35,243 bases of DNA. It comes from Ignavibacteriales bacterium. Lineage in GTDB: Bacteria; Bacteroidota; Ignavibacteria; UBA10030. Shown here in pieces: positions 1,765 to 8,898 of this stretch. How positions within the stretch are numbered: the first letter of the stretch is position 1; each line of letters opens with the position of its first letter. The stretch lies in the NCBI GenBank assembly GCA_016194505.1, contig JACQBK010000034.1, positions 1 through 35,243 of the forward strand, in the 5' to 3' direction. The translations under genes and the position numbers were made by a program. The notes under the pieces were generated by a model, which made no database searches, was not told where the DNA came from, and saw only the letters and a program-made list of their open reading frames with translations.

Positions 1765-4014
1765 TTATATTTTTTTCATCTTAAGTCTCAACGAATTTGA
1801 AACGACACTAACGGAACTGAATGCCATGGCTCCTGCGGCAATAATCGGATTAAGCATGCCCAACGCCGCCAACGGAATGCCGATAATGTTATAAATGAAC
1901 GCCCAAAAAAGATTTTGCCGGATGGTTCGGATTGTCGCTTTTGATAGCTTAATTGCCTGCACAACCCCCATGAGATCGGATCGCATCAGCGTTATGTCCG
2001 CGGTTTCCATTGCAATATCCGTTCCGGTTCCCATTGCGATGCCGACATCGGCTTGAGCAAGGGCTGGAGCATCGTTGATGCCATCACCGACCATTGCAAC
2101 AATGTTTCCTTCCGCTTGAAGTGCTTTTACGTGCGCCGTTTTATCTTGCGGCAACACCTCCCCTATAACGCTATCAATCACAACTTGCGTCGCAATTGCA
2201 TGAGCCGTTCGTTTGTTATCTCCCGTCAACATGATGGTCTTGATGTTCATGCGTTTGAGTTGTGCTATTGCATCGAGCGATGTTTCCTGAATCGTATCGG
2301 CGATTGCAACAAGTCCGGCAAGTTTCCCATTCATCGCAACAAAGATGGACGTTTTTCCTTGTTCAGAAAATTTTGCCGCGTTCGTTTCTGCTTCCGTTGT
2401 TGCTATTGAGTATTCCCGCATCAAATTTGTATTGCCAACAGCCATTGCATAGCCCTGGACGACCCCTGTAACGCCTATGCCGGTAAGAGATTGAAACGAC
2501 TCAACGTTTTCCAAGTGCAGACCAAGCTCTTTTGCTTTTTCGACAATGGCTTGCCCTAACGGATGCTCGGATTTGTGTTCCAGCGAAGCCGCTTGCTGAA
2601 GCAGTGTTTGCTCATTGACTCCGTTAAATGTCATGATATCGGTAACGGATGGCTTTCCCTTGGTGATCGTGCCCGTTTTATCGAAAACAACCGTGTCAAT
2701 CTTATGGGCGCGCTCTAAACTTTGGGCGTTTTTAATAAGCACTCCCATTGAGGCTCCGCGCCCTGTACCAACGATAATTGCTGTCGGTGTTGCAAGCCCC
2801 AATGCGCATGGGCACGCAATAATAAGAACAGCGATAAAATTCATCATTGCCGCAGTAAAACCAACGCCGCCCACGACATACCACAGCACGAATGTCGCAA
2901 CTGCAATCCCGATGACAATCGGGACGAAAACGGAAGCAATCGTATCTGCCAGCGCTTGAATAGGCGCTTTCGAGCCTTGTGCATCTTCTACTAACTTAAT
3001 GATATGCGCGATGACGGTGTCCTTCCCGACAGCAATTGCGCGAAACTCGATGCTGCCGTTTTTATTGATCGTACCGCCAACGACATTATTCCCAACGCTT
3101 TTCTCGACCGGCAAGCTTTCTCCGGTAATCATGGATTCATCAATTGTGGTGAATCCGTCGGTGATGACGCCGTCCACAGGGATTTTTTCGCCGGGTCGCA
3201 CGTGCACACTATCGTTCACAAGAACGGCATCAATGGGTATTTCCTGCTCAACACCGTTACGGATAACGTGCGCAGTTCGCGGCTGAAGGCCCATGAGTTT
3301 CTTAATCGCATCGGAAGTTTTGTGCTTCGCACGGGCTTCAAGCAGTCGCCCCATTAAAATGAGAGCAATGATAGTCGTTGTGGTATCGAAGTACAAATCA
3401 TTCATCGCTCCGGATAATCCCAGCCAGTGTGGGAAGAGTGTTACGACTGCGCTGTACGCGTACGCAACTCCCGTTCCGACAGCGACGAGGGTATTCATAT
3501 CCGCCGAAAAATGTTTGGCAAGCTGCCATGCTGTTTTGTAAAATCTCTTTCCTGAGATAAACACCACTGGCGTAGCCGCTATAAGAAGAAGCTTGTTGAC
3601 CTCATCCATTGAAAGAGGCGACCACTCCATAAACCATGAGGTCATGCTGACCATGCTGACAATCATAATCGGGATCGCAAGCACCATCGCGAAAATAAAT
3701 TCCTTCTTCAATTGCTTGTAGGCTTTTTCTTGATGGGATTCCTGCAAACTTTCCAAAGGTTTGGGACCTTCGGAAGGTTGAGATTTCTCTGGCGCAAGGA
3801 GCTTATAGCCAACTTCTTCTACCGCCGCTGAAAGTTTCGAAAGATCGGTTTTTTGTGGATCGAACGAAAGGGCGACGTTCTCCGTCGCAAGGTTGACGTT
3901 CGCCTCCCTTACGCCATCTACTTTCTTCAATGCCTTCTCAACGCGCAGAACACAGCTTGCGCATGTCATTCCCTCAACGGGGAGCGTTATAGTTTGTTGA
4001 GCGTTGTTGTCCAT
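1765..4014 (-). CDS. copA: copper-exporting P1B-type ATPase
   Basis: Pumps Cu(I) out of the cytoplasm across the inner membrane using ATP. The 749 residues are full length. One N-terminal HMA domain has GMTCASC at residues 15-21. Hydrophobic helices follow, then the TGES actuator loop (297-300). The membrane metal site CPC is at 401-403, typical of Cu(I) transporters. The phosphorylation motif DKTGT has its aspartate at 445, the HP motif lies in SEHPLG (near 484), and a GDGINDAP hinge is near residue 645. It starts two bases after the stop of copZ, so the two are almost certainly one transcript. No hairpin terminator is visible after the stop. Confidence 0.97.
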
Positions 4015-4016
4015 TG

Positions 4017-4226
4017 TTATGTTGTCGAAACAAGTTCGTAGCCCGCTTCCTCAATTGCGTGTGCCAGCGATTGTTGAGTGACGGTTGACTCGTCGTACTT
4101 CACGCGCGCTTTGCCGATTTGCACGTCTTCAACGGTCAATCCTGCGACTTTGCCAAGTTCTTTCTTGACGCTCATGACGCAATGACCACAGCTCATTCCT
4201 TCGATGGTGAGTTCTTGAGTTTTCAT
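4017..4226 (-). CDS. copZ: CopZ-like copper chaperone (single HMA domain)
   Basis: A 69-residue cytosolic metallochaperone with the ferredoxin-like HMA fold. The Cu-binding motif is GMSCGHC near residue 10 (M-x-C-x2-C), and the protein ends in the EAGYELV strand common to the family. It is the first gene of the copZ-copA unit. An AAAGGA site precedes the ATG. It should hand Cu(I) to the CopA N-terminal domain and perhaps to the nearby HMA-AraC regulator. Family recognition is clear, and the copper preference follows from the neighbouring CPC-type ATPase. Confidence 0.93.
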
Positions 4227-4263
4227 GCGTGATTCCTTTCTGAAAAATAATTTCTGATTGCAC

Positions 4264-4284
4264 TATCAATATAACGTATTGATA
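4264..4284. promoter_or_regulatory. palindromic operator candidate in the copZA promoter
   Basis: TATCAATA (4264-4271) and TATTGATA (4277-4284) are perfect inverted arms around a 5-bp spacer. The palindrome overlaps the likely minus-strand -10 (TATATT, 4268-4273), 38 bp upstream of the copZ start. Confidence 0.45.
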
Positions 4285-4321
4285 TGCAGAAGGAGTTACA
4301 TTTTAAGGAAAAAGAGTTACA
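4268..4321 (-). promoter_or_regulatory. copZA promoter with tandem activator sites
   Basis: On the minus strand, TGTAACTC occurs twice (4314-4321 and 4293-4300), exactly 21 bp apart, i.e. two helical turns on the same face. The proximal copy overlaps where the -35 should lie relative to a TATATT -10 (4268-4273), and no good -35 hexamer is present. This arrangement is typical of AraC-family activation with the activator substituting for -35 contacts. The HMA-AraC gene at 4575-5165 is the obvious candidate activator. Confidence 0.5.
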
Positions 4322-4354
4322 AAGTTTTAAGGGCTATTTTGGCTTAAAAACAAG

Positions 4355-4382
4355 CGCCATGCTGGCTTATTCCAACATGGCG
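4355..4382 (-). terminator. rho-independent terminator after the ackA / HMA-AraC unit
   Basis: CGCCATGCTGG (4355-4365) pairs with CCAACATGGCG (4372-4382), an 11-bp stem with one G-U pair and a 6-nt loop. On the minus strand it is followed by CTTGTTTTTAAG. It separates the regulator transcript from the copZA promoter. Confidence 0.65.
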
Positions 4383-4426
4383 TTTAGAGTTTAACTTGAT
4401 TTAAATCTCCCCTAAAATAAAAACGG

Positions 4427-4516
4427 GACACAGAGAACACAGAGATCACAAAGGAAACAATTAAAAAAATATTTATTCTCTGTGTGCTTTGTGTCTTCTT
4501 TGTGCACCTCTGTGCT
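4427..4516. repeat. CACAGAG-type imperfect inverted repeat
   Basis: The left side carries GGACACAGAGAACACAGAG and a CACAAAGG block. The right side carries the complement (CTCTGTGTGCTTTGTG, then CACCTCTGTG) around an AT-rich centre. It is a member of the window-wide family also seen at 7710, 16186, 19249, 24543 and 28165. Together with the promoter, the terminator and a TTTTTGAGATG motif at 4543-4553, it accounts for the 348-bp gap between copZ and the regulator. Confidence 0.6.
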
Positions 4517-4574
4517 ATGCTTTTATCTTTAAGCCTCGAGTGTTTTTGAGATGCTTATGAAAATAACGTGAATT

Positions 4575-5165
4575 TTACCTCACTTTATCCAGCGGCTTTC
4601 GGCTCTCGGTTTTGAGATGTTTAAAATGGCTGGGGGAAAATCCCGTTACCTGCTTAAATTGGTTGGAAAGGTGCGGAACACTGCTATACCCCATTTTATA
4701 GGCAATTTCACTCAACGTAAGCTCGTCATATTTCAATAATTCCTTCACCCGCTCGATCTTTTGGAGGATAATGAACTTCTCGATGGTGATTCCCTCCGTT
4801 GATGAAAACAGCGAGCTGAGGTAATGATATTCCAATCCGAGTTCCTTTGAGATGTATTCGGAATAATTGAGCTTTAATTCCTTCTCATCGTGGTTGTAGT
4901 GAACGAGCCGTATAATGGCGTTTTTTATCCGCTCGACGATTTGAGATTGTTTATTATCGAGCAGTTCGAAACCATTTGCTTCCAACGTTTCCCGAATTTT
5001 CTTAACGTCCAATTCACCCTTCGTCGCGGAGACAATTGCTTCTCCGAGCGTAACGCTTCGCATATCAAGTCCAAGATGTTGCAATTCTTCCCTCACGACC
5101 TTGATGCACCGGTCGCATACCATATTTTTAATATGTAAGGTCGTTGTTTTTTGAGAGGAGTTCAT
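4575..5165 (-). CDS. HMA-AraC fusion transcriptional regulator, probable copper sensor
   Basis: A 196-residue protein joining two domains rarely seen together. Residues ~8-70 form an HMA-like domain with the metal motif MVCDRC (M-x-C-x2-C). Residues ~100-190 are an AraC/XylS double helix-turn-helix, with ITIEKFIILQKIERVKELL, then LSEIAYKMGYSSVPHLSNQF and the GFSPSHFK ending. There is no large effector domain, so the HMA domain is the only plausible sensor. The gene lies nine bases after ackA and just before copZA. Its likely targets are the 21-bp-spaced direct repeats upstream of copZ. The start is supported by AAGG about nine bases upstream of ATG. Domain calls are strong; copper sensing is inferred from the neighbours. 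Confidence 0.88.
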   Translation of the reverse strand: MNSSQKTTTLHIKNMVCDRCIKVVREELQHLGLDMRSVTLGEAIVSATKGELDVKKIRETLEANGFELLDNKQSQIVERIKNAIIRLVHYNHDEKELKLNYSEYISKELGLEYHYLSSLFSSTEGITIEKFIILQKIERVKELLKYDELTLSEIAYKMGYSSVPHLSNQFKQVTGFSPSHFKHLKTESRKPLDKVR

Positions 5166-5174
5166 CGTGCAGCC

Positions 5175-6422
5175 TTACCATCTTCTCGGAGCGTCTTTCA
5201 CACTGCGGACAGTGTCCCGCGCAATCAAAAGCTCTTCGTTGGTCGGAATGACGTAGAGTTTTACTTTGCTGCCGGCTTTGCTGATTTCGCCCTCTTTGCC
5301 GTGTTGGAGTTCGTTGTTGCGCTTTTCGTCAATCTCAACGCCTAACCATTCCAGCCCGGTACAAATTCGCTGGCGGATTGTCTTTGAGTTTTCGCCGATA
5401 CCGCCGGTAAAGATGATCGCGTCAGCGCCGTTCATCTCCGCAAGGTACGCGCCGATGTATTTTTTTACGCGTTGGCAAAAAATATCAATTGCCAACTTCG
5501 CCCGTCGGTCTTGGTGCTCGTGTTCCTCTTCGAGCAGATCGCGCATGTCGTTTGTCAAACCGGAAAGCCCAAGCAAGCCGGATTGTTTGTTGAGCACGGT
5601 GTCAATTTCGCTGATGGACATGCCTTCCTTATGCGCAAGGAACTCCAGCACCGAAGGGTCAATATCGCCGCCGCGTGTCCCCATCACGAGACCTTCCAGC
5701 GGCGTTAAGCCCATGGAGGTATCGAACGATTCTCCACGTTTAATCGCGCACGCCGAACAGCCGTTGCCGAGATGGAGCGTGATGACGTTTGTTTCTTCGC
5801 GGCCCTTCCCTGCAATTTTACGATAGCGATACGCGGCATAACGGTGCGAGGTGCCGTGGAATCCGTACTTGCGGATTTTATGCCGGCGATAGAGCTGATA
5901 GGGGATTGCGTACAGATACGATGTTTCCGGCATCGTAGAGTGGAACGATGTATCGAACACCGCAACTTGCGGAACACCGGGACCCATTAACTCCCGCGCG
6001 GCGTAAATGCCTTTGAGGTTTGCGGGGTTGTGCAACGGAGCGAGCTCGATTGTGTCTTCTATTCCTTTGATGACCTCTTCATCAATGATGACGGATTTGG
6101 TGAACTTCTCCGCGCCGTGAACAACGCGGTGACCGATGGCATGAATATCCGCAAGTGAGCGGATGCCGGGGATCTGCGCCTCTGCGGAGATAATCCACCG
6201 GACGACATAATCGAGCGCGGCACGGTGATCCCGCAGGGGCGCCGCTTGCTTGATTGACGGTTTTCCGTCCGCTTGAAGCGTAATGAGCGATTGGCTGCCG
6301 ATGCGCTCGATAAGACCCTTTGCTTTTTGCGTCTCGGTGTCTTTCTCGATAAGGTCGAGATCGGTTTCGATGATTTGGAATTTGAGCGATGAGCTGCCGC
6401 AATTCAGGACGAGTATATTCAT
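5175..6422 (-). CDS. ackA: acetate kinase
   Basis: Interconverts acetyl phosphate plus ADP with acetate plus ATP in the cytosol, giving substrate-level ATP in fermentation. The 415 residues are slightly longer than the usual ~400. Seen are the N-terminal LVLNCGSSSLKF phosphate-binding motif, FHGTSHRY, the TPLEGLVMGTRGGDIDPS block and FTGGIGENS, all diagnostic of the ASKHA-fold acetokinase family. No phosphotransacetylase gene is next to it, although pta-ackA pairs are common. It probably begins the transcript that continues into the HMA-AraC regulator nine bases downstream; whether that link is functional is unclear. Confidence 0.97.
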   Translation of the reverse strand: MNILVLNCGSSSLKFQIIETDLDLIEKDTETQKAKGLIERIGSQSLITLQADGKPSIKQAAPLRDHRAALDYVVRWIISAEAQIPGIRSLADIHAIGHRVVHGAEKFTKSVIIDEEVIKGIEDTIELAPLHNPANLKGIYAARELMGPGVPQVAVFDTSFHSTMPETSYLYAIPYQLYRRHKIRKYGFHGTSHRYAAYRYRKIAGKGREETNVITLHLGNGCSACAIKRGESFDTSMGLTPLEGLVMGTRGGDIDPSVLEFLAHKEGMSISEIDTVLNKQSGLLGLSGLTNDMRDLLEEEHEHQDRRAKLAIDIFCQRVKKYIGAYLAEMNGADAIIFTGGIGENSKTIRQRICTGLEWLGVEIDEKRNNELQHGKEGEISKAGSKVKLYVIPTNEELLIARDTVRSVKDAPRRW

Positions 6423-6560: not shown

Positions 6561-6666
6561 GTGCTATTCTATATAAAACGTACTGTTTTGTTACCCGAAA
6601 CTCAAGGCTATGTTCCTTCCGTTTTTCTCAATTTTAGCGTATCTTCTCAATGGTGATAATCACAAA

Positions 6667-7659
6667 ATGAAAAAATTCACACTCAAGCCGCTGCCGCACG
6701 ACAATTTGCATCTCGTTCATCCGCAGCGATTTACTATAGATTATAAGAATGACCTCAACCCCGCGCAGTATGAGGCGGTTACCTCGGTAAACGGTCCGCA
6801 CCTTATTATTGCGGGAGCGGGAACGGGCAAAACGCGCACGGTCGTGTATCGTGTTGCGTATCTTGTTGAATTGGGTGTGAAGCCCGAACATATTTTGCTC
6901 CTCACATTTACACGCAAAGCGGCACAGGATATGCTTCGCCGCGCGGCGTTGCTTCTCGATACGCGATGCGAGCAGGTTGCAGGTGGAACGTTCCACTCGT
7001 TTGCCAATAATATCTTACGCAAGTATGCAACGCTGATAGGGTTTGAGACGAATTTTACCATTCTGGATCAAGGCGATGCGGAGGATGTTATCAATCTTCT
7101 TCGCATGCGGCTGAAATACGATACGAAGGAAAAACGCTTTCCCCGCAAGGAAGCGCTCTACGATCTCTATAGCCGTTCGCTGAATACAGTGACGCCGATG
7201 AACCAAATCCTCGCGTACGATTATCCGCATTATCTTGAGCTTGAGGAGGATATTAAAAAGGTTCACGCCGCGTATGTAAGTTACAAAAAACAGCATAATC
7301 TTATGGATTATGACGATCTGCTGTTTAATCTTGGCGAGTTATTGAGGAAGAATGAGGCGATCCGTGCAACGCTTTCGGATCGGTATAAATACATTATGGT
7401 TGACGAGTATCAGGATACGAATAAAATTCAGGCGGAGATCGTCAAACTGCTTGCACTGAAACATGATAACATCATGGTGGTGGGGGATGATGCGCAGTCT
7501 ATTTATTCGTTCCGCGGCTCGACGATTAAGAATATATTGGACTTTCCGAAAGAATTTTCCAATTGTAAAATCGTGAAGTTGGAAGAAAACTTTAGAAGCA
7601 CCCAGCCGATTTTGAACTTGGCGAATGAGATATTGAAACGCGGTGCGCCGGTTAAATAG
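6667..7659 (+). CDS. UvrD/PcrA-type SF1 DNA helicase, N-terminal half of an interrupted gene
   Basis: ATP-dependent 3'-5' DNA helicase family. Visible are the Q-motif region (LNPAQYEAV), Walker A GAGTGKT, motif Ia (LLTFTRKAA), Walker B VDEYQDTN, motif III (GDDAQSIYSFRG) and motif IV (LEENFRST). The frame then hits a TAG shortly after the LANEILKR helix of domain 2A. The remaining motifs continue in the same frame from 7879. The start could be ATG at 6667 or at 6610; 6667 avoids a hydrophobic, family-atypical leader. The half ends inside a 219-bp palindromic insertion carrying four in-frame stops. Whether the halves can associate as a split enzyme is unknown; loss of function is the simpler view. 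Confidence 0.88.
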   Translation: MKKFTLKPLPHDNLHLVHPQRFTIDYKNDLNPAQYEAVTSVNGPHLIIAGAGTGKTRTVVYRVAYLVELGVKPEHILLLTFTRKAAQDMLRRAALLLDTRCEQVAGGTFHSFANNILRKYATLIGFETNFTILDQGDAEDVINLLRMRLKYDTKEKRFPRKEALYDLYSRSLNTVTPMNQILAYDYPHYLELEEDIKKVHAAYVSYKKQHNLMDYDDLLFNLGELLRKNEAIRATLSDRYKYIMVDEYQDTNKIQAEIVKLLALKHDNIMVVGDDAQSIYSFRGSTIKNILDFPKEFSNCKIVKLEENFRSTQPILNLANEILKRGAPVK

Positions 7660-7878
7660 AAAGTGAAAAGTGAGAGGTAAGGGGTGAGAAGGGCAAAGCA
7701 AAAGACATTTTACCGCGGAGCGCGCCCGCCCGCCTCGGGCAGGCAGAGGTCGCGGAGAAGGACATTAAAACGTTGAAATTATTTTAAGTATCTTCTCTCT
7801 GTTCTCCGCGATCTCTGCGGTAATATTTTTTTTGTTTTTTTCTTTGTGCCCTTGGTGTCGTTGTGGTTAAATTAAAAA
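7660..7878. repeat. 219-bp nested palindromic insertion splitting the helicase gene
   Basis: The outer unit is a hairpin. TTACCGC at 7710-7716 plus CAGAGGTCGCGGAGAA around 7744-7759 is complemented by TTCTCCGCGATCTCTG plus CGGTAA at 7802-7823. The left arm is itself split by a 25-bp GC-rich palindrome (7721-7745) that has GAG on both sides (7718-7720 and 7746-7748). The tail (7838-7870) reads CTTTGTGCCCTTGGTG, the word typical of the other CACAAAG-type repeats here. The length is a multiple of three, so the helicase frame is kept, but TAG, TAA, TGA and TAA lie in frame. Confidence 0.8.
7721..7745. repeat. GC-rich palindrome inserted in a larger hairpin
   Basis: CGCCCGCCCGCC and GGGCAGGC-type arms, a divergent copy of the CCTGCCTGC/GCAGGCAGG family. 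GAG on both sides resembles a 3-bp target duplication. Confidence 0.6.
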
Positions 7879-8898
7879 ATGTACAATAAAGAACTTTACT
7901 CAAAAAAATCCGACGGAAATTTGCCCCAGCTTGTGATTGCGGAGAACGAAAACCTCCAATCTCGCTTTGTTGTGCAGAAGATTTTGGAACTACGGGAGCA
8001 GGGCATTCCCCTTGAAGAAATGGCGGTGTTGTTTCGGTCATCGTTTTTGTCATTCGATCTGGAAATTGAACTGACAAAGGCGAACATCCCATTTGTAAAG
8101 TTCGGTGGATTTAAGTTCATCGAGACATCCCATGTAAAAGATATGATCGCGTATCTGCGCGTGCTGGAAAATCCCCGCGATGTCGTTGCGTGGAACAGGA
8201 TTCTGCTGTTGATTGACGGGGTCGGTCCCCGCACCGCGGAAAAAGTGATCGAAGATATTTTAAAGAAAAGAGTAGCAACCACCGGAAACGGAACAGAAGC
8301 GGTTACAACAAAATTCTGGATGGATTACAACGCGTATCCGGAAAACGTTCAAAAAGTGTTCTCTATGTTGGGCGCAGTTGCGAAGCCGACCGTGGCTCCG
8401 GCGGAGAAAACATATCACATTCTTCAGTATTATGAGCCGATTTTGCGGGCGCGGTACGATGATCACTCCAAGCGGAAAAAAGACCTCGAGATGTTCCAAA
8501 ACATAACCGAGCGCTACAATGATGTCGGAACGTTATTAACCGATCTTGCGTTAGAGCCGCCGAACGAAAGCGTTTCCGATATCGAGTCGCCGGGGAAGGA
8601 AGAAGAATTTCTCACGCTCTCGACCATTCACAGCGCAAAAGGATTGGAGTGGAATGCGGTATTCGTTCTCTATGCGCTTGAGGGGAGATTTCCCACCAGC
8701 CGCGCCGCATCAAGCGACGACGAAATGGAAGAGGAACGACGGCTGATGTATGTCGCTTGTACGCGCGCGAAGGAACATCTTTTCATCACGTACCCCATCA
8801 ATATTTACGACCGTGAAAGCGGCATAATTTTAAGCAAGCCCTCGCGCTTTATTGCAGGCATTGAAGGAAAATTGTTGGAGCCGTGGGTGATTGAGTAA
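7879..8898 (+). CDS. UvrD/PcrA-type SF1 DNA helicase, C-terminal half of an interrupted gene
   Basis: A 339-residue segment that completes the helicase begun at 6667. It opens with the YNKELYSKK(S)DG strand that normally follows motif IV. It contains LRSSF-like domain 2 elements (VLFRSSF), the 2B insertion, a GVGPRTAEKV helix-hairpin-helix-like segment, motif V (TIHSAKGLEWNAVFV) and motif VI (YVACTRAKEHL). It lacks Walker A/B and cannot hydrolyse ATP alone. It shares the reading frame of the first half. The two halves add up to about 690 residues, close to a complete family member, so little or nothing was deleted. ATG at 7879 has no Shine-Dalgarno sequence and lies at the insertion border, which suggests it may not be a real start. 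Confidence 0.85.
   Translation: MYNKELYSKKSDGNLPQLVIAENENLQSRFVVQKILELREQGIPLEEMAVLFRSSFLSFDLEIELTKANIPFVKFGGFKFIETSHVKDMIAYLRVLENPRDVVAWNRILLLIDGVGPRTAEKVIEDILKKRVATTGNGTEAVTTKFWMDYNAYPENVQKVFSMLGAVAKPTVAPAEKTYHILQYYEPILRARYDDHSKRKKDLEMFQNITERYNDVGTLLTDLALEPPNESVSDIESPGKEEEFLTLSTIHSAKGLEWNAVFVLYALEGRFPTSRAASSDDEMEEERRLMYVACTRAKEHLFITYPINIYDRESGIILSKPSRFIAGIEGKLLEPWVIE

Follow-up and report, generated by a model that had tools for sequence, protein, structure and literature searches.

An HMA-AraC fusion protein and its predicted 21-bp-period operator at copper efflux genes of Bacteroidota

A family of small proteins widespread in Bacteroidota joins a CopZ-like HMA domain to an AraC-type DNA-binding domain, and its genes are accompanied throughout the phylum by a predicted operator made of two direct half-sites with a period of 21 bp. 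On the evidence of sequence and structure comparisons, we consider it probable that the fusion is a one-component Cu(I) sensor, which would act through its HMA domain as an AraC-type class II activator of copper efflux. The comparisons establish the fusion itself, the predicted operator, the fixed geometry of the promoters and the association of the operator with both the fusion and copper genes. An earlier sequence-only reading of the locus had proposed a regulator of the neighboring copZA genes; it had not foreseen that the predicted operator occurs with the fusion across the phylum, nor that further copper genes share it.

Organization of the copZA locus

The window, i.e., the whole analyzed stretch of 35,243 nucleotides, is a contig of an Ignavibacteriales bacterium. 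On its reverse strand lie the acetate kinase gene ackA (6422-5175), the gene of the HMA-AraC fusion regulator (4575..5165, 196 amino acids), the copper chaperone gene copZ (4017..4226) and copA (1765..4014). The CopZ protein (69 amino acids, with the motif MSCGHC) is matched by the HMA profile (E 5.9e-10) and by the CopZ model (E 5.2e-18). CopA is a Cu(I)-type P1B ATPase, with 610.9 bits against TIGR01511 (cut-off 397), and its translation contains the CPC motif, which is the mark of Cu(I) ATPases.

The fusion gene starts 9 nt past the stop of ackA (window 5165-5175) and is therefore probably co-transcribed with it in the source genome. The gap between the regulator and copZ is 348 bp long in the window, against about 100 bp usually found among relatives. 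It contains, at about 4425-4525 and upstream of the operator, a ACACAGAGA...TCTCTGTGT repeat that resembles a dispersed element at 7660-7878 and that may be the reason for the unusual length of the gap. Elsewhere in the window, the gene of a UvrD-type helicase is broken into N-terminal and C-terminal open reading frames (UvrD-helicase and UvrD_C, 6610-7659 and 7879-8898). The interrupting stretch of 219 bp has inverted ends, and portions of it have matches at about a dozen genomic sites, which gives it the appearance of a small dispersed element inserted into the gene.

Domains and distribution of the fusion family

The fusion has an N-terminal HMA domain (about residues 6-67; 4965..5150, reverse strand, as all features of the protein) with the metal-site motif MVCDRC (residues 15-20; 5106..5123), followed by an AraC-type double helix-turn-helix (HTH) DNA-binding domain (residues 106-182; 4620..4850). 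The DNA-binding domain is matched by HTH_18 with an E-value of 2.5e-15 (57 bits, cut-off 33.6). The Pfam HMA profile has no match on the protein at E 1e-3, and the assignment of the HMA domain thus rests on the CopZ model (residues 8-67, E 1.1e-5), on the match between the family profile and the solved chains of CopZ and ATP7B, and on the predicted fold. The AF2 model has a mean pLDDT of 90.9, and Foldseek relates it to CopZ (2qif, TM 0.74 by target) and to the DNA-binding domains of AraC, MarA, SoxS and GadX. The protein has the two-HTH DNA-binding domain that characterizes the AraC/XylS family (by HTH_18 and its AraC/MarA/SoxS fold) as well as the MxCxxC motif in a ferredoxin-like fold that characterizes HMA/CopZ-like domains (MVCxRC, AF2 and Foldseek). 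All 78 aligned members share residues M15, V16, C17, R19 and C20, for a mean column identity of 45%. The fusion of the two domains, which had been claimed from the letters of the window, is borne out by all these analyses except for the Pfam HMA profile.

Full-length relatives were identified in 24 of 61 related genomes and in about half of the sampled Bacteroidota genomes (182 of 395), as well as on plasmids of Hymenobacter, Spirosoma, Runella, Pontibacter and others. In most loci the regulator is followed by copZ and then copA, or directly by copA, and many relatives lack copZ between the two genes. Neither domain is new, and the architecture already exists in the databases, unnamed: members of the family (e.g., WP_324679909.1, WP_309942520.1 and WP_169611323.1 in RefSeq Bacteroidota) are mostly labeled "AraC family transcriptional regulator", with no HMA domain, copper or operator named. 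A literature search for HMA-AraC copper regulators found no study of the family, which is weak evidence given its thin coverage of subscription journals.

A predicted operator with a 21-bp period

The sequence TGTAACTC occurs twice on the coding strand of copZ, at 4321-4314 and at 4300-4293, with a period of exactly 21 bp. The first copy is the predicted distal half-site (4314..4321, reverse strand), and the second the predicted proximal one (4293..4300, reverse strand), located at the -35 position. Taken by itself, without the relatives, this repeat is weak, as a shuffled 348-bp gap contains on average 2.3 repeated 8-mers and has one at lag 21 in 1.1% of the cases. It becomes significant because it is kept in relatives. 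We scanned 90 distinct gaps between regulators and targets for self-similarity at lags 8 to 44, a procedure that uses no motif, and only lag 21 was prominent (z 18.4). A match of 9 out of 12 positions at this lag was found in 39% of the 90 gaps, against 6% in shuffles. De novo motif finding by expectation-maximisation from random seeds recovered, in nearly all gaps, a TRYAAM half-site followed 21 bp further on by ATnTRTAAC. The phylum-wide consensus is TRYAA-N16-TRTAA, with an exact period of 21 bp. In the window, it corresponds to the 31-bp predicted operator TTTGTAACTCTTTTTCCTTAAAATGTAACTC (4293..4323, reverse strand; score 23.6 with the de novo motif).

In a gap as AT-rich as this one, 8-mers often recur, and the 1.1% of shuffles with one at lag 21 could make the repeat of the window look fortuitous. 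Its conservation across the phylum, at the same lag and the same position, refutes this explanation, to which we attach almost no probability. The direct repeats had been proposed as the likely operator of the fusion, with their conservation in orthologous promoters as the check. This check was strongly passed, by the lag scan, the de novo motif and the CopA promoters described below, and the proposal is supported at the scale of the phylum.

Geometry of the promoters

In the promoters, positions were counted relative to the T that opens the proximal TRTAAC. In 40 of the 47 promoters where the next gene encodes an ATPase or a second regulator, the Bacteroidota -7 element has its TTTG starting at +31. 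When copZ comes next, TATNTT lies mostly at +27 (24 of 42 promoters have it at +26 or +27); in the window, the -10 box TATATT (4268..4273, reverse strand) is at +27, i.e., 27 nt from the start of the proximal TGTAAC, the same spacing as in relatives. Given this fixed spacing to the -10/-7 box, the predicted proximal half-site sits in the place of the -35/-33 element, in agreement with the initial placement of the proximal copy over the -35 position.

The same arrangement could serve a repressor: the apo-protein would block the -35 region until released by Cu(I), like CopY or CsoR. The overlap of the proximal half-site with a region where the polymerase could be blocked is compatible with this mode of action. 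However, the invariant -10/-7 spacing and the replacement of the -35/-33 element are typical of class II activation by AraC-type proteins, and we regard repression as unlikely.

The palindrome TATCAATA/TATTGATA (4264..4284, in the form TATCAATA-N5-TATTGATA) had also been put forward as a regulatory element over the -10 box. Its right arm, on the copZ strand, overlaps the conserved TATATT (4273-4268). Among 89 aligned promoters it is present in one, that of the window itself, and 10% of shuffled sequences contain an inverted repeat like it. We therefore rejected it as a second operator, and it is probably incidental.

Specificity of the predicted operator and its targets

We counted the motif within 700 nt upstream of CPC-type CopA genes. 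It is present at 81 of 88 such promoters in fusion loci, a figure that is partly circular since the model was trained on fusion loci, and at 1 of 30 when no fusion was detected in the genome; the chance rate obtained by permuting columns is 0.7%. The CopA proteins of these fusion-less genomes, some of them close relatives, are as similar (45-70%) to the one of the window. Some fusion loci are near-duplicates. The lag scan and a hold-out of plasmid loci are free of the circularity of training. Among the eight held-out plasmid loci, which lie outside the training set, five have a match to the motif, against 0.175 expected per locus, and three have no clear site. Downstream of the plasmid sites are, in one case each, a P-type ATPase, an SO_0444 Cu/Zn transporter and a four-helix-bundle copper protein.

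In loci whose regulator gene lies elsewhere than directly upstream, the motif still stands before copA or copZ (L080, L148, L174, L187 and L190). Further copper genes share the predicted operator: it also lies ahead of ArsP/SO_0444 permeases with an HMA tail and of HMA-MauE membrane proteins, and there are instances before an RND pump, a multicopper oxidase and an outer-membrane efflux protein. At L105, L120, L155, L172 and L193, it stands before a second copy of the HMA-AraC gene, in tandem or nearby, which suggests a cascade or an amplification loop. In one genome (G006), copZA has the operator (L201) and no fusion gene was found in the assembly; the gene may fall in an assembly gap or have been lost. 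Autoregulation was rejected as a rule, as the motif is rare upstream of the regulator and most of its occurrences there are accounted for by regulator genes in tandem. We also rejected a broad regulon in the source genome, with five matches to the pattern versus nine for the reversed-pattern control. The copZ site scores 24.0 in this genome and the others 12.6 or less, which leaves it as the only convincing one.

The list of targets also bears on the nature of the ligand. The system could be real and respond to another soft metal (Ag, Zn, Cd or Hg) or to a broad set of them, given that HMA domains are able to bind several metals and that the SO_0444-type permeases are annotated as Cu/Zn. Yet, the genes mainly targeted encode CPC-type CopA, CopZ, multicopper oxidase and copper-binding proteins, and a ligand other than copper seems quite unlikely.

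Another regulator (a two-component system, an ECF sigma factor or a CsoR-like protein) might instead bind the repeat, the fusion being a chaperone-like bystander. The source genome does encode a CsoR-family protein, and marine Bacteroidota were reported to have only two-component and ECF copper systems (PMC10141476). Against this, the presence of the motif tracks that of the fusion gene, the motif covaries with the recognition helix of the fusion (see below), and a direct orientation with a period of two helical turns is AraC-like. We rejected CsoR as the regulator of copZA: its gene is unlinked to copA (L260, C21 of the source genome) and stands beside mercury-type genes, namely MerT/MerP-like HMA genes. 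Binding by a regulator other than the fusion is thus very improbable.

Covariation with the recognition helix

The predicted recognition helix of the second HTH spans residues 163-174 (4644..4679, reverse strand) in the AF2 model and includes His165. Residue 165 ranks first among the 196 positions of the protein for its association with positions 5 and 26 of the operator. T-type operators are mostly found with His165 and C-type ones with Tyr165; of the 14 operators that have C at position 26, Tyr accompanies 13 and His one. In tree-aware tests, five of the nine changes of residue 165 share a branch with a base change at position 5 (P 3e-4, uncorrected), and the association observed was not equalled in any of 1000 simulations. 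For position 26, there is a single co-change on the same branch, which is not significant (P 0.23). The covariation is moderate and linked to clades; it supports direct recognition of the predicted operator by the fusion and is not decisive.

A model of copper-dependent activation

These elements suggest the following mechanism. The two-HTH AraC domain would bind directly, probably with two protomers, to the TRYAAM half-sites, whose 21-bp period corresponds to two helical turns. As the proximal half-site replaces the -35 element, the bound protein could contact the RNA polymerase. Binding of Cu(I) at the MVC-x-R-C site (C17/C20) of the HMA domain would switch the fusion on, perhaps through the copper-bridged pairing of two HMA domains or through an altered packing of the HMA and DNA-binding domains, and the activated fusion would then promote, rather than repress, the transcription of copZA. 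The copper-bridged pair is an attractive switch, and would provide for dimerisation; to our knowledge, it has no earlier description for AraC regulators.

The regulator might receive Cu(I) from CopZ, as does CopY (PMC10141476). Since many members of the family lack an adjacent copZ, not all of them can depend on copper handed over by a linked CopZ; such a transfer may take place and need not be general.

Comparison with known regulators and significance

Binding to two asymmetric half-sites of the same orientation, about 21 bp from each other and with the proximal one at -35, is a feature of AraC/XylS proteins. AraC bound at araI1-I2 has half-sites 21 bp apart, the proximal one over the -35 element, and activates in the class II mode. 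The predicted operator of the fusion likewise consists of direct half-sites with this spacing and position. The fusion shares the double-HTH C-terminal domain of AraC/XylS activators (AraC at araI1-I2, SoxS/MarA, RhaS). It differs from them by an HMA metal-binding sensor in place of a cupin or another effector domain, and by its small size (196 amino acids) with no known dimerisation domain. Its N-terminus has the fold and the MxCxxC motif of the CopZ/Atx1-type HMA metallochaperones, to which it adds a DNA-binding domain, and an invariant Arg precedes the second Cys (MVCxRC), where the CopZ of the window has a His (MSCGHC).

Like CueR, a member of the MerR family, the fusion would be a cytosolic Cu(I)-responsive one-component activator of copA, but the two differ in fold, operator and promoter geometry. 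CsoR and CopY also control copZ-copA operons (copZA/copYZBA); they belong to unrelated protein families and, by our best reading, have the opposite sign of control. Profile searches found in the fusion no match to the MerR family, whose member CueR has a MerR-type N-terminal HTH and a C-terminal Cys loop, and reported no BlaI/MecI-type winged helix as in CopY; the Trns_repr_metal domain of CsoR (PF02583) is absent from it, and its sequence contains no CopY-type CxCxxxxCxC motif. The design is thus unlike those of CueR, CsoR and CopY, as had been anticipated. None of 198 Bacteroidota genomes has a protein passing the curated CueR cut-off, although weaker MerR relatives exist, and the best MerR match in the source genome is far below it.

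The means by which Bacteroidota sense copper in the cytosol seem not to be settled. In the flavobacterium Bizionia argentinensis, a study published in 2024 detected no MerR or CopY protein bearing a copper site, had only ArsR-family candidates and did not confidently name a cytosolic copper regulator (PMC11213822). The survey of marine bacteria mentioned above identified in Bacteroidota only two-component and ECF copper homologues (PMC10141476). The HMA-AraC family may be the copper sensor that these bacteria seemed to lack. A bolder proposal, which we hold as tentative and rather doubtful, is that it is the general cytosolic copper sensor of Bacteroidota, replacing CueR, CsoR and CopY, with Cu(I)-bridged HMA domains of two protomers setting the spacing for the 21-bp repeat. 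A widespread family with a defined predicted operator, a promoter geometry and a list of targets is a concrete and testable candidate. If our reading is true, the "AraC family regulator" entries of very many Bacteroidota genomes would be open to re-annotation, and copper regulons would become predictable from the 31-bp operator, which would also serve as a copper-inducible promoter part.
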